Shown here in pieces: positions 21,652 to 25,429 of a DNA stretch of 64,000 bases (within the stretch, counting starts at the first letter, position 1; each line of letters begins with the position of its first letter). The position numbers were made by a program, and so were the translations under genes. Under the pieces are notes generated by a model that worked only from the letters and a program-made list of their open reading frames with translations, was not told the DNA's origin and searched no databases. Source of the stretch: Poseidonocella sedimentorum (lineage in GTDB: Bacteria; Pseudomonadota; Alphaproteobacteria; Rhodobacterales; Rhodobacteraceae); the NCBI RefSeq assembly GCF_900116005.1, contig NZ_FOYI01000003.1, positions 1-64,000 of the forward strand, read 5' to 3'.

Positions 21652-22296
21652 ATGAAACCTGCGCCGTCACCGCAGAAGGATGCCTATTCGCTGGTGCTCG
21701 AGGCGATTGATCTGGGGCTCTACAAGCCGGGGGACCGGTTGGTCGAGAGCGAGCTGGCCGAGCGGTTCGGGGTCTCGCGCACGCCGATCCGGGAGGCGCT
21801 CCAACGGCTGGAGACGCAATCGCTGCTGACGCGGGATGGGCGGAGCTTGATCGTGGCCTCGCTCGATCACAACCAGCTGGCAGAGCTTTACGTCGTGCGC
21901 TCCGAGCTTGAGGGGCTGGCGGCGCGGCTGGCGGCGCAACATGCCACGGAAGAGGAGGTGCGCGTGCTGCGTGACATGCTCGATTCGGACCGGCTTCTGG
22001 CCAAGGATCCGGCGGCGCTCGCGCGCACCAACCGGCGGTTTCACAAGATGGTCCACCTTGCGTCACACAACCGCTATCTGGTGCAGCAGCTCGACCTTGT
22101 CTACCGCTCCATGGCGCTCATGGCGACAACGTCGCTCTCAAGCGAGGGGCGCGCCGAGATCGCGCTGGCTGAGCATGACGAGATCGTTCAGGCCATTGAA
22201 AAGCGCGATTCGGATCGGGCCTACGCGGCGCTTAAATCACATATTTCAAAGGCTTATGTGACGCGGCTCAAGTCTGACGCTGAAGCCGCGGAATAG
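21652..22296 (+). CDS. GntR/FadR-type (FCD) transcriptional regulator
   Basis: 214 residues. The winged helix (about 8-75) carries ESELAERFGVSRTPIREALQRL. The FCD ligand-binding domain (about 85-205) is all helical. Metal-binding His and Asp candidates lie in RRFHKMVHLASHN and LAEHDEI. The family represses catabolic operons and is released by organic acids. No catabolic gene lies beside it, so the target is unknown. The start is supported by GGAAGG about 8 bp upstream. Confidence 0.9.
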   Translation: MKPAPSPQKDAYSLVLEAIDLGLYKPGDRLVESELAERFGVSRTPIREALQRLETQSLLTRDGRSLIVASLDHNQLAELYVVRSELEGLAARLAAQHATEEEVRVLRDMLDSDRLLAKDPAALARTNRRFHKMVHLASHNRYLVQQLDLVYRSMALMATTSLSSEGRAEIALAEHDEIVQAIEKRDSDRAYAALKSHISKAYVTRLKSDAEAAE

Positions 22297-22307: not shown

Positions 22308-24176
22308 TCACTCCGGTCCGGGCTGGGAATGGCCGTGTTCGGTCTTGTCCCAGAAGAACGGGCGCGCGATGAGCTCGTAGAGCCCCTTGTAGGCGGCGAG
22401 TGTGGCCAGCGGGAAGTAGAGCATCATCCCCGGCGTCCACTTCATCAGGTGGCGGTGGCGCTCGCCCCGCACGGCGAAGCTTGAGACGGCCACGCCCACC
22501 AGCTCCATCGCGAGAAACCCCGCCCCGATCAGCAGCGTGCCTTCAGTGGAGAGGACCGGTGTGAGCGGGTGGGGCGCGCCGAGGAGCACCAACCAGAAGG
22601 ACCACAGGACCGGCGCGAAGAGGAAGCCCACGATGGAAGTCAGAAAGAAGATCTGGAAGCCGAAGAAGCGCCAAGCGCCGAGTTGACGAAAGAGCGTCCA
22701 GGGCCGGCGCATGTGGACCGCATAGGTCGCCATGTAGCCCTTGAGCCAGCGCGAGCGTTGCCGCACCCAAGGCCAGGCGCGGCAGTTCGCCTCCTCCATC
22801 GTGACCGTGTCGATCAGCTCCGTCCGGTAGCCGTGGCGCGCGAGACGGATTCCCAGATCGGCGTCCTCTGTGACGTTGTGGGCATCCCACCCGCCGAAGC
22901 GTTCGAGAATTTTCCGCTGGAAAAACAGTGTCGTACCGCCCAGTGGGATCGGAAAGCCCAGCCGCGCGATGCCCGGCAGGAAGACGCGGAACCAGGTGGC
23001 ATATTCGATCGCGAAGCAGCGCGCCATCCAGTTGTGGCGGGCGTTGTAGTAGTCCAGCACACCTTGCAGGCAGACCACGTCCCAAGGCGCATCGCGGAAG
23101 CGCCGGGCGACCTTTTCGAGCTGGTCCGGGGCGGGGGCGTCCTCGGCGTCATAGATGCCGACGATCTCGCCGCGGCAGAAATCCAACGCGTAGTTGAGCG
23201 CGCGCGGCTTGGTTTGCGGGTGGCCCGGCGGGACGACGATGGTGCGGTACCAGACCGGCAGCTGGCTCTTGGCGAGGGCGTCGCGAGTCAGGCTGTCGCC
23301 CTCTTCGACGACGAGCAGGATGTCGAGCAGATGGCGCGGATAGTCGAGCCGGTCGAGCCGTTTGACAAGGACCTCGGCCACCGATTGCTCGCGGTGCAGC
23401 GGCACGAGGATCGAGATCGTCGGGCGTTTCCAACCCGGCGGCCCCTTGGGGAAGCTCTCGCGGCGCCGGCTCGTGAGCGCGGCGGTGAAGGCGGCGATCT
23501 TGAGCAGAGTCGAGAACAGAAGCGAGACCGAGGCGACGGAGGCGAGGGCAGTGAAGGTGATGACCGGCTGATAGACCAGCGCGGCGATAAGCGCGCCGAC
23601 GGTGATCGCGGCGAAGAGCCCGGCGAAGCGGCTGTTGTCCTGCATCGTGCGGCAGGAGACCTCTTCGGGCACGCGCGTTTCGGCCCGGCGCGCGAGGGTC
23701 TCGCCGCAAAACCGGCGCAGCACTTCTTCGAGCGTGGTGACGGGCGTGACGGCGAGGATCGCGGGTTTGAGATCGTCGGGCAGGGCCTCCAGGATCGCCT
23801 CCAGCCGTTCGGGGTAGGCGGTGGCGATCACCGTGAGCCCGCCGACGCGCGACCACGGCACGAAGCCGACCTTCTGCATGACGCTCGGATCCACCCGTTC
23901 GATCAGCCGGGGCATGGGCGCGCCGCCCGCAAGATCCACGTATTGCGCTGATTTCTGAAGAGAAAGCGCGCGGTACAGCTCGGCTTCGGTGATCAGCCCG
24001 AGGGCAACGAGCACATCGCCGAGCTTGGCATTGTCGGATTTCTGAACCTTGATCGCGCGGGTCAACTCACCGTTGCTGATCAGCCCCTGGCTCACAAGGA
24101 TTTCGCCAAGGCGCACATGCGCCCGGTCCGATACGAGCGGCTCAGCCGTTTCCAATCTGAGGGAAGCGTCCGACAT
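22308..24176 (-). CDS. Membrane glycosyltransferase 2 with N-terminal MshEN (c-di-GMP-binding) domain
   Basis: 622 residues. Residues 22-45 (RLGEILVSQGLISNGELTRA..Q) and 51-74 (KLGDVLVALGLITEAELYRA..Q) form two 24-residue motifs with a 5-residue spacer. This is exactly the c-di-GMP-binding pattern of MshEN domains. Two membrane helices follow (about 190-235), then a GT2 catalytic domain: ISILVPLHRE, IYDAEDAP (DxD-like), TEDADLGIRLA (base) and QRSRWLKGY (QxxRW). Four more membrane helices are at the C-terminus. It resembles NfrB-like and cellulose-synthase-like enzymes that export a glycan. The acceptor is unknown. The GntR gene converges on it with 11 bp between. Confidence 0.88.
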   Translation of the reverse strand: MSDASLRLETAEPLVSDRAHVRLGEILVSQGLISNGELTRAIKVQKSDNAKLGDVLVALGLITEAELYRALSLQKSAQYVDLAGGAPMPRLIERVDPSVMQKVGFVPWSRVGGLTVIATAYPERLEAILEALPDDLKPAILAVTPVTTLEEVLRRFCGETLARRAETRVPEEVSCRTMQDNSRFAGLFAAITVGALIAALVYQPVITFTALASVASVSLLFSTLLKIAAFTAALTSRRRESFPKGPPGWKRPTISILVPLHREQSVAEVLVKRLDRLDYPRHLLDILLVVEEGDSLTRDALAKSQLPVWYRTIVVPPGHPQTKPRALNYALDFCRGEIVGIYDAEDAPAPDQLEKVARRFRDAPWDVVCLQGVLDYYNARHNWMARCFAIEYATWFRVFLPGIARLGFPIPLGGTTLFFQRKILERFGGWDAHNVTEDADLGIRLARHGYRTELIDTVTMEEANCRAWPWVRQRSRWLKGYMATYAVHMRRPWTLFRQLGAWRFFGFQIFFLTSIVGFLFAPVLWSFWLVLLGAPHPLTPVLSTEGTLLIGAGFLAMELVGVAVSSFAVRGERHRHLMKWTPGMMLYFPLATLAAYKGLYELIARPFFWDKTEHGHSQPGPE

Positions 24177-24233
24177 GCCCCATCCTTGACCCAAGTGCCT
24201 CGGCACTCTGGGCGAATTGGGTTAATGCGGGGT

Positions 24234-24258
24234 AAAAACCTCCCCAATTTCGGGGAGG
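24234..24258 (-). terminator. Rho-independent terminator after carA
   Basis: On the minus strand CCTCCCC, loop GAAATT, GGGGAGG, then TTTTT. It lies just downstream of the carA stop at 24272. Confidence 0.85.
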
Positions 24259-24271
24259 TCCGGGGCCCTCC

Positions 24272-25429
24272 TCAGGCGCGCTCGGCCATCGCCGCGGCGA
24301 AGCGCTCGAAGAGGTAATAGCTGTCCTGCGGGCCCGGGCTCGCCTCCGGGTGGTACTGGACCGAAAACACCGGCCGGTCGGCCACGCGGATGCCGCAGTT
24401 GGAGCCATCGAAGAGCGACACATGCGTCTCGATCACACCCTCGGGCAGGGTCTGGCTGTCGACGGTGAAGCCGTGGTTCATTGAGGTGATCTCGACCTTG
24501 CCGGTCTCGTTGTCGCGCACCGGGTGGTTGGCGCCGTGGTGGCCGTGGTTCATCTTGACCGTGTGGGCCCCGAGGGCGCGGGCAAGCATTTGATGCCCAA
24601 GGCAAATCCCGAAGACAGGCAGGTCCGTCTCGTCAAGCAGCTCGCGGATCATCGGCACCGCGTATTCCCCCGTTGCCGCCGGATCGCCGGGGCCGTTGGA
24701 AAGGAAAATCCCGTCCGGGTTCTGGGCCAGCACATCCTCGGCGGTGGAGGTCGCGGGCATTACGGTCACCTCGCAGCCAGCGCTGGCGAGGCAGCGCAGG
24801 ATGTTGCGCTTGGCGCCGTAATCGAGCGCGACGACCTTGAACCGGGCCTCGGTCTGGGGCGCGTAACCCTCGGGCCAGGCCCAGCGTTTTTCATTCCACG
24901 CATAGCTCTGGGTGCAGCTCACGTCCCGCGCGAGATCCCGGCCCACGAGCCCCGGGAAGGCCCGCGCGCGCGCCACCAGCGCCTCGATGTCGAAGACACC
25001 GTCGGGATTGTGCTCCAGCGCCACATGCGGCGCGCCCTGTTGGCGGATCGCGCGGGTCAGGCGCCGGGTGTCGACCCCGCCGATGGCGATGCGCCCCCGC
25101 TTGGCAAGCCAGTCCGAGAGCGGCTCTGCGGCGCGCCAGTTCGACGGCTCCGTCGGATCCCACTTCACGACCATCCCCGAAGCGACCGGGTCCATCGCCT
25201 CGTCATCCTCGGGGGTCACCCCGACGTTGCCGACATGCGGGAAGGTGAAGGTCACGATCTGGCCGGCGTAGGACGGATCGGTCATGATCTCCTGATAGCC
25301 GGTCATGGCGGTGTTGAAGCACAGCTCCGCCTCGGTCGAGCCCTCGGCCCCGAAGCCGCGGCCGTAGAAGATCGTCCCGTCTGCGAGGGCAAGGCAGGCG
25401 GTTGGGTGTGTCCCGGCGGAGTGGGTCAT
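24272..25429 (-). CDS. carA: Carbamoyl-phosphate synthase, small (glutaminase) subunit
   Basis: 385 residues, the standard length. The N-terminal domain reads [20 protein letters not shown] and [20 protein letters not shown]. The class I glutaminase has its nucleophilic cysteine in [11 protein letters not shown] and the catalytic His-x-Glu in [10 protein letters not shown]. It supplies ammonia to CarB for pyrimidine and arginine synthesis. carB is not in the window. A rho-independent terminator follows, so it is probably monocistronic. Confidence 0.97.

Follow-up and report, generated by a model that had tools for sequence, protein, structure and literature searches.

A predicted c-di-GMP-gated polysaccharide synthase with an N-terminal MshEN domain, conserved beside carA while its motifs decay among relatives

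The control of exopolysaccharide by c-di-GMP is usually told through the PilZ domain. A gene in the 64,000-nucleotide stretch of Poseidonocella sedimentorum DNA analysed here (the window), from a 3.56-Mb genome in 27 contigs, raises the question of whether a polysaccharide synthase may instead be switched through an MshEN domain, and of how such a switch fares among the relatives of the enzyme. The gene lies at 22308..24176 on the reverse strand and gives 622 amino acids from the ATG at 24176; in the open reading frame check, the frame spans 22308..24206 from an in-frame GTG at 24206. An earlier note on the sequence had read the product as a family 2 glycosyltransferase (GT2) with an N-terminal c-di-GMP-binding domain. 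On the comparisons below, it is most likely a polysaccharide synthase of the inner membrane under the direct control of c-di-GMP.

An MshEN domain is defined by two 24-residue motifs of the form RLGxx(L/V/I)2xxG(L/V/I)2xxxxLxxxLxxQ with a 5-residue spacer, and the protein contains both. Motif I, RLGEILVSQGLISNGELTRAIKVQ, covers residues 22–45 (24042..24113, reverse strand), and motif II, KLGDVLVALGLITEAELYRALSLQ, covers residues 51–74 (23955..24026, reverse strand), the spacer between them being KSDNA; both were found by motif model and pattern match. The departures from the textbook motif are Lys51 for Arg and Ile42 for Leu, both conservative. The published relaxed 53-residue pattern has a single match, at residue 22, and matched nowhere in 200,000 shuffled versions of the sequence. 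The NCBIfam model NF053729 spans residues 22–74 end to end (E = 9.7e-18) with 63.7 bits, against a cut-off of 38 and a score of 66.4 bits for E. coli NfrB, and the window's copy tops all the scores of this model listed in the genomes of the family. The pair and its exact spacer thus stand as the earlier note had described them. They are followed by an MshEN_C subdomain at residues 78–160 (23697..23945, reverse strand), where Pfam PF05157 scored 26.9 bits against a cut-off of 23.1. The same motifs, spacer and MshEN_C are shared with the N-terminal domain of Vibrio cholerae MshE; in MshE this domain controls a type IV pilus ATPase, whereas the window's MshEN is fused to a GT2 enzyme. A phmmer search of the PDB paired the front part of the protein with domains of MshE, PilB and PilF. 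In a Foldseek search with a structure model of the domain (mean pLDDT 63.6), taken as weak support alone, the c-di-GMP-bound MshE entry 5htl came first at a TM-score of 0.41, and ranks 1–20 were N-terminal domains of MshE, PilF, PilB or XpsE with TM-scores near 0.4. The motif pair makes direct c-di-GMP control of the synthase plausible, although even a perfect consensus gives no guarantee of binding, because in the available part of one study a PilF domain with its consensus restored by mutation bound only once further features had been taken away as well (PMC12002112).

The remainder of the protein resembles a processive synthase. Two membrane helices, predicted from hydropathy at residues 182–235 (23472..23633, reverse strand), precede a GT2 catalytic domain at approximately residues 252–482 (22731..23423, reverse strand), which was placed by Pfam and alignment, scores above the cut-offs of four Pfam glycosyltransferase families and carries DAED at 343, TED at 436 and QRSRW at 473. 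The C-terminal membrane region, residues 502–608 (22353..22673, reverse strand), has two segments above the hydropathy threshold (502–536 and 545–570), and more are possible. A conserved WDKTEH tail, residues 609–614 (22335..22352, reverse strand), follows in our 131-row alignment. With DxD, TED and QxxRW in a membrane protein, its helices being called from hydropathy, the product has the sequence marks of the processive GT2 synthases of the BcsA, PgaC and NfrB type, and the phmmer relatives of its body in the PDB were cellulose synthases and one family-2 glycosyltransferase. It shares the membrane GT2 with the BcsA–BcsB cellulose synthase, and related copies adjoin BcsB-like genes (see below); BcsA, however, carries PilZ where the window's synthase has an N-terminal MshEN, and a Pfam scan of the protein found no PilZ, in agreement with the earlier note. 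The CelA model reached 43.7 bits against a cut-off of 699.1, and with CelA, PilZ and a BcsB partner (sought in the genome with seven of nine candidates scored) as the marks of BcsA, the protein falls outside that group. A full-length structure model, built from two sequences with a mean pLDDT of 42.2, was discarded.

In its own genome the synthase is the only MshEN protein found. Alongside it there are eight GGDEF matches and a single PilZ match; from its sequence, we judge the PilZ protein not to be a glycosyltransferase. The family looks like Rhodobacteraceae, with Tateyamaria and Pseudorhodobacter as the closest named relatives found. As the earlier note had observed, the gene stands alone, with glycan genes absent from its immediate neighbourhood. 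Upstream, at 24272..25429 on the reverse strand, lies a conserved neighbour identified by open reading frame and locus comparison, which from its sequence we take to be carA. A GntR/FCD regulator found by family search (21652..22296, forward strand) converges on the synthase gene from the other side. The gap between carA and the synthase contains a hairpin with a perfect 8-bp stem and a run of T after it (24238..24259, reverse strand); it is absent from the list of the terminator scan, but by eye it is terminator-like and suggests a separate transcript for the synthase gene.

To place this arrangement in the family, we took 100 loci, one of them a second copy, with approximately 6 kb on each side where contigs allowed. 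A carA-like gene lay immediately upstream on the same strand in 94 of them, and a direct recount gave CarA at 95 of 99 first-copy loci. A small conserved gene beyond carA was present in 89/100, and two downstream genes, neighbours of the window's copy as well, were present in 74/100 and 83/100; one of these is a HAD-type hydrolase by family search and the other presumably an FAD-dependent hydroxylase. The linkage to carA and the conserved flanks point to an old single gene at a fixed place, with no local glycan cluster. The linkage across the family, together with nearly invariant catalytic residues (DAED in 131/131 alignment rows, TED in 130/131 and QxxRW in 131/131), is new here.

The synthase is found almost throughout the family: 138 of 149 genomes, representing 148 genera, had a match, two of these (G017 and G119) being weak and probably not orthologues. 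Matches were present in 138 of the 141 genomes that have GGDEF, and all eight genomes without a GGDEF match also lacked the synthase (Fisher's exact test, P = 3.3e-11). On a quick CarA tree of 136 genomes this co-absence requires only two changes of each, and we therefore did not take it as independent evidence; that the genomes devoid of GGDEF all lack the synthase is suggestive, no more. Among the 11 synthase-negative genomes, three (G102, G115 and G146) had weak, non-orthologous CarA matches, so that the absence may there be an assembly gap, and one (G001) has GGDEF and carA with the synthase absent.

The switch has not been kept as the enzyme has. The 131-row alignment includes a named outside strain (L032) and a second copy (L141); excluding these leaves 129 orthologues, one per genome, and nine of the 138 positive genomes (G015, G017, G022, G054, G068, G091, G119, G122 and G147) are omitted as split, cut or weak. 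With thresholds set in the present analysis, the motif pair was intact in 43 of the 129, partial in 35, degenerate in 33 and absent in 18. Over the 131 rows, position 22 is Arg in 17 and position 51 is Arg or Lys in 42, Gly24 is kept in 90 and Gly53 in 59, and the terminal glutamines Gln45 and Gln74 are kept in 60 and 62. The glycine losses and missing domains weigh more than changes at the first position, as NfrB itself has Pro there and still binds. An independent measure, the NCBIfam motif model, exceeded its cut-off in 59/149 genomes and had E values up to 0.001 in 89/149. On a quick tree of residues 250–622, in which change counts cannot separate loss from gain, at least 24 changes are needed between intact or partial and degenerate or absent states, and 10 between absence and presence of the domain. 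Two of the orthologues scored as absent retain remnants: in one (G009, L092) the synthase is split and an MshEN-like part is read from a frame of its own upstream; in the other (G123, L091), where the synthase is interrupted, such a part lies behind an in-frame stop. At most 16 of the 18 thus lack MshEN; of the eight intact controls in the remnant check, one (L012) was overlooked. Motif state showed no relation to GGDEF number (Mann–Whitney, P = 0.38). With 51 of the 129 orthologues having a degenerate or missing motif and the enzyme kept, the enzyme can persist without its switch; that the switch repeatedly decays while the enzyme persists is new here. The earlier note had named loss of the arginine/lysine and leucine pattern in orthologues as evidence against its claim. 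The arginine/lysine pattern is indeed lost in part of the family, whereas the window's copy is itself the most canonical: it alone among the 129 has the strict consensus in both halves, which makes the example of the earlier note the best-preserved one. In its sister species (L003), each half still has its glycines and its final glutamine, and the first positions are Pro and Gln.

Relatives outside the family supply the neighbours that the window's gene lacks. Across the class, 128 of 289 genomes had some match, many of those listed being to the general GT2 body only; in a mixed set, 13 of 24 proteins, the window's included, matched the motif model at E values up to 0.001, and some outside copies carry degenerate motifs or none. 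A protein of the Geobacillus stearothermophilus plasmid pEF60063-1 (CP128455.1, WJQ05460.1) has the same MshEN-first order, a motif pair scoring 65.7 bits and 40.3% identity to the window's protein over residues 252–615 of the latter. The plasmid is typed as conjugative and groups this gene with those of a BcsB protein (PF03170, 43.4 bits) and a ManC-like sugar nucleotidyltransferase, whereas the window's gene is lone and chromosomal. We collected 20 further alphaproteobacterial loci from the stronger matches, in genomes spanning 14 family codes. At three of these 20 (L204, L205 and L211), as in strain UR115, a BcsB-like gene lies directly upstream of the synthase. A Pfam BcsB match is known for the Geobacillus protein alone; the UR115 protein has none, and the other three are called BcsB-like from their similarity to it, those of L204 and L205 being similar to the Geobacillus BcsB as well (E = 1.2e-7 and 2.9e-9). 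Within the family, a BcsB-like profile matched in 7 of 149 genomes, and the three strong matches (G013, G088 and G107) adjoin a second synthase copy away from carA. Near these second copies, with the BcsB-like gene upstream, are histidine kinase or response-regulator genes (L228, L226 and L227, respectively), and the loci are possibly regulated glycan operons. Weak matches to dCache sensors, under the Pfam cut-off, were also seen close to synthase genes in L204 (11149–12240) and L226 (3852–5963). In the window's genome, a five-row profile with seven of nine candidates scored found no BcsB-like gene.

The outside loci also point to a candidate exporter. At eight of the 20 (L204, L205, L206, L208, L211, L214, L217 and L218; six of the 14 family codes), the synthase has a neighbour, approximately 3 kb away at most, whose product of about 265 residues starts with what looks like a signal peptide and ends in phenylalanine, the features expected of an outer-membrane barrel. 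The gene abuts that of the synthase in L208 and L218; the BcsB-like gene, synthase and barrel occur together in L204, L205, L211 and the second-copy locus of G088 (L226). Predicted barrel genes were placed at L204:10458–11252, L205:2724–3515, L211:9222–10031 and L226:2817–3596, and at 20 family loci (L233–L252). Inside the family the barrel carries the motif GAWPR...EYGLT...W.EF. It was assigned to no Pfam or NCBIfam family (0 for three members; 0/8), and a family-model search gave a single weak barrel match among 18. Near the synthase it was found at only 4 of 109 first-copy family loci, all in one clade; the difference from 8/20 (Fisher's exact test, P = 2.8e-5) ignores relatedness and is an after-the-fact comparison, because the synthase loci used for the count are those in which the barrel had first been noticed. 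A profile built in the family found the barrel in 79 of 149 genomes, mostly unlinked to the synthase. All 79 are among the 138 synthase-positive genomes and none among the 11 negative ones (Fisher's exact test, P = 1.6e-4), an association sharing with the GGDEF co-absence the weakness of few changes on the tree, and barrel presence showed no link to motif state (47/78 versus 30/51, P = 1.0). In the window's genome, two profile searches, with 15 of 27 and 19 of 35 first-look candidates scored, found no barrel. The search for outer-membrane partners proposed in the earlier note has therefore yielded a candidate exporter type at related loci, but neither partner in the genome from which it set out. 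We tentatively suggest that a BcsB-like protein, an MshEN-gated GT2 and a barrel of about 225–270 residues may form an undescribed secretion module; the carA-linked synthase would then be a dispersed remnant of its core, maintained by selection for some basic role in the envelope, the barrel gene lying mostly elsewhere on the chromosome in many genomes and the gate having been lost repeatedly.

Fusions of MshEN to glycosyltransferases have been stated before, as seen in the accessible parts of Wang et al. 2016 (PMC5013675), whose supplementary tables may list such proteins, and of PMC12943098; what was seen of two reviews (PMC10333796 and PMC10519070) adds nothing on them. In the literature searched, mostly titles and abstract openings with few subscription papers, we found no description of a synthase with MshEN first, of BcsB or barrel genes next to it, or of the decay of the domain. 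The closest characterised analogue is E. coli NfrB, described in 2021 (PMC8669469, PMC8669472, as available in part). It is the c-di-GMP-activated exopolysaccharide synthase of NfrBA-YbcH, the phage N4 receptor system, and it shares with the window's protein the GT2 with DxD, TED and QxxRW, the MshEN domain, the inner-membrane location and the lack of PilZ. According to the same partial source (PMC8669469), NfrB binds c-di-GMP with a Kd of 1.0 µM, and changes in either of its parts reduce or abolish N4 infection. A conserved MshEN is reported there in 1,705 of 1,841 NfrB homologues, whereas the carA-linked synthases often have it worn or missing.

Taken together, we favour, with a probability of roughly 0.55, a membrane-bound, cellulose-synthase-like GT2 that is switched directly by c-di-GMP and polymerises and threads a sugar chain. 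The c-di-GMP would be made by at least one of the eight GGDEF-matching proteins and bind to MshEN_N, the cytosolic domain at the N-terminus, where it would lie between the two helix-pair motifs of 24 residues each. With c-di-GMP bound, the domain would act on the glycosyltransferase by way of MshEN_C and the first pair of membrane helices, releasing or aligning it if MshE and NfrB are a guide; activation is the presumed direction of the effect. The glycosyltransferase would then polymerise a nucleotide sugar and pass the polymer across the inner membrane between its own helices, and the chain would cross the outer membrane by a barrel of the type seen beside related synthases. The domain, motif, catalytic residues, conservation and gene position behind this reading were computed, and the binding, processive product and barrel passage are predicted from them. 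It is favoured because the motif pair is complete and NfrB-like in score, the catalytic residues are kept, the protein is the sole carrier of MshEN in a genome with eight GGDEF matches, related MshEN-first synthases adjoin BcsB-like genes or barrels, NfrB binds c-di-GMP with the same parts, and GGDEF-less genomes are without the synthase. It is weakened by the worn or missing motifs of the 51 orthologues, whose state is unrelated to GGDEF number, and by the failure to find NfrA_C in the genome or, among the part of the candidates scored, a BcsB-like or barrel gene.

The decay could also mean that the MshEN domain is a structural or dimerising relic and the enzyme constitutive or otherwise controlled, as in its motif-less relatives. 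The 33 degenerate and 18 absent motifs and their independence of GGDEF number fit such a relic, and there are known cases, XpsE among them, of GSPII domains in which binding has been lost or is blocked (PMC12002112, PMC5013675, each in its accessible part). The window's copy is nevertheless the one that meets the strict consensus in both halves, and the glycines and glutamines of the sister species give little sign of decay in the genus; we regard a relic here as rather unlikely, though it is the strongest of the alternatives. Slightly less probable still is a lipid-linked sugar or short glycan as the product, with no secreted polymer. A lone gene by carA with no adjoining export genes would suit this, as would the failure to find BcsB-like and barrel partners in the genome among the part of the candidates scored, and the HpnI and MftF models show similarity under their cut-offs; against it, QxxRW is present in every alignment row, the best-scoring glycosyltransferase relatives include exopolysaccharide, cellulose and PNAG synthases, themselves all under the model cut-offs, and relatives adjoin BcsB-like genes.

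Very improbable, by comparison, is that the protein is the local NfrB, making the NfrBA polymer, proposed to be a ManNAc glycan. The two domains are the same, and both sequences show TED, QxxRW and a tail of the form WDKTxH. The domain order is, however, opposite, as the earlier note had pointed out, with MshEN C-terminal in NfrB; BLASTP aligned only part of the glycosyltransferase domain, at approximately 22% identity; and the NCBIfam equivalog model for NfrB, which gives 1332.7 bits to the E. coli protein, gave 33 to the window's, against a cut-off of 1170 and with its best stretch in MshEN. Orthology to NfrB was accordingly rejected. An NfrA partner was rejected as well, since NfrA_C (PF13283) matched in 0 of 149 family genomes, the window's own included, with E. 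coli positive as control. NfrB, with which the earlier note had compared the protein, is thus an analogue rather than a near relative.

A direct c-di-GMP switch on the synthase, the reading we prefer, would place a different c-di-GMP gate on an enzyme found in nearly every searched genome of a large bacterial family, and the loci outside that family offer a candidate exporter type for a synthase previously without one. As intact, worn and lost gates occur on the same catalytic body, a direct test of gate function is possible, and, if the module suggested above is real, the family would hold a natural series of one enzyme with and without its c-di-GMP switch.
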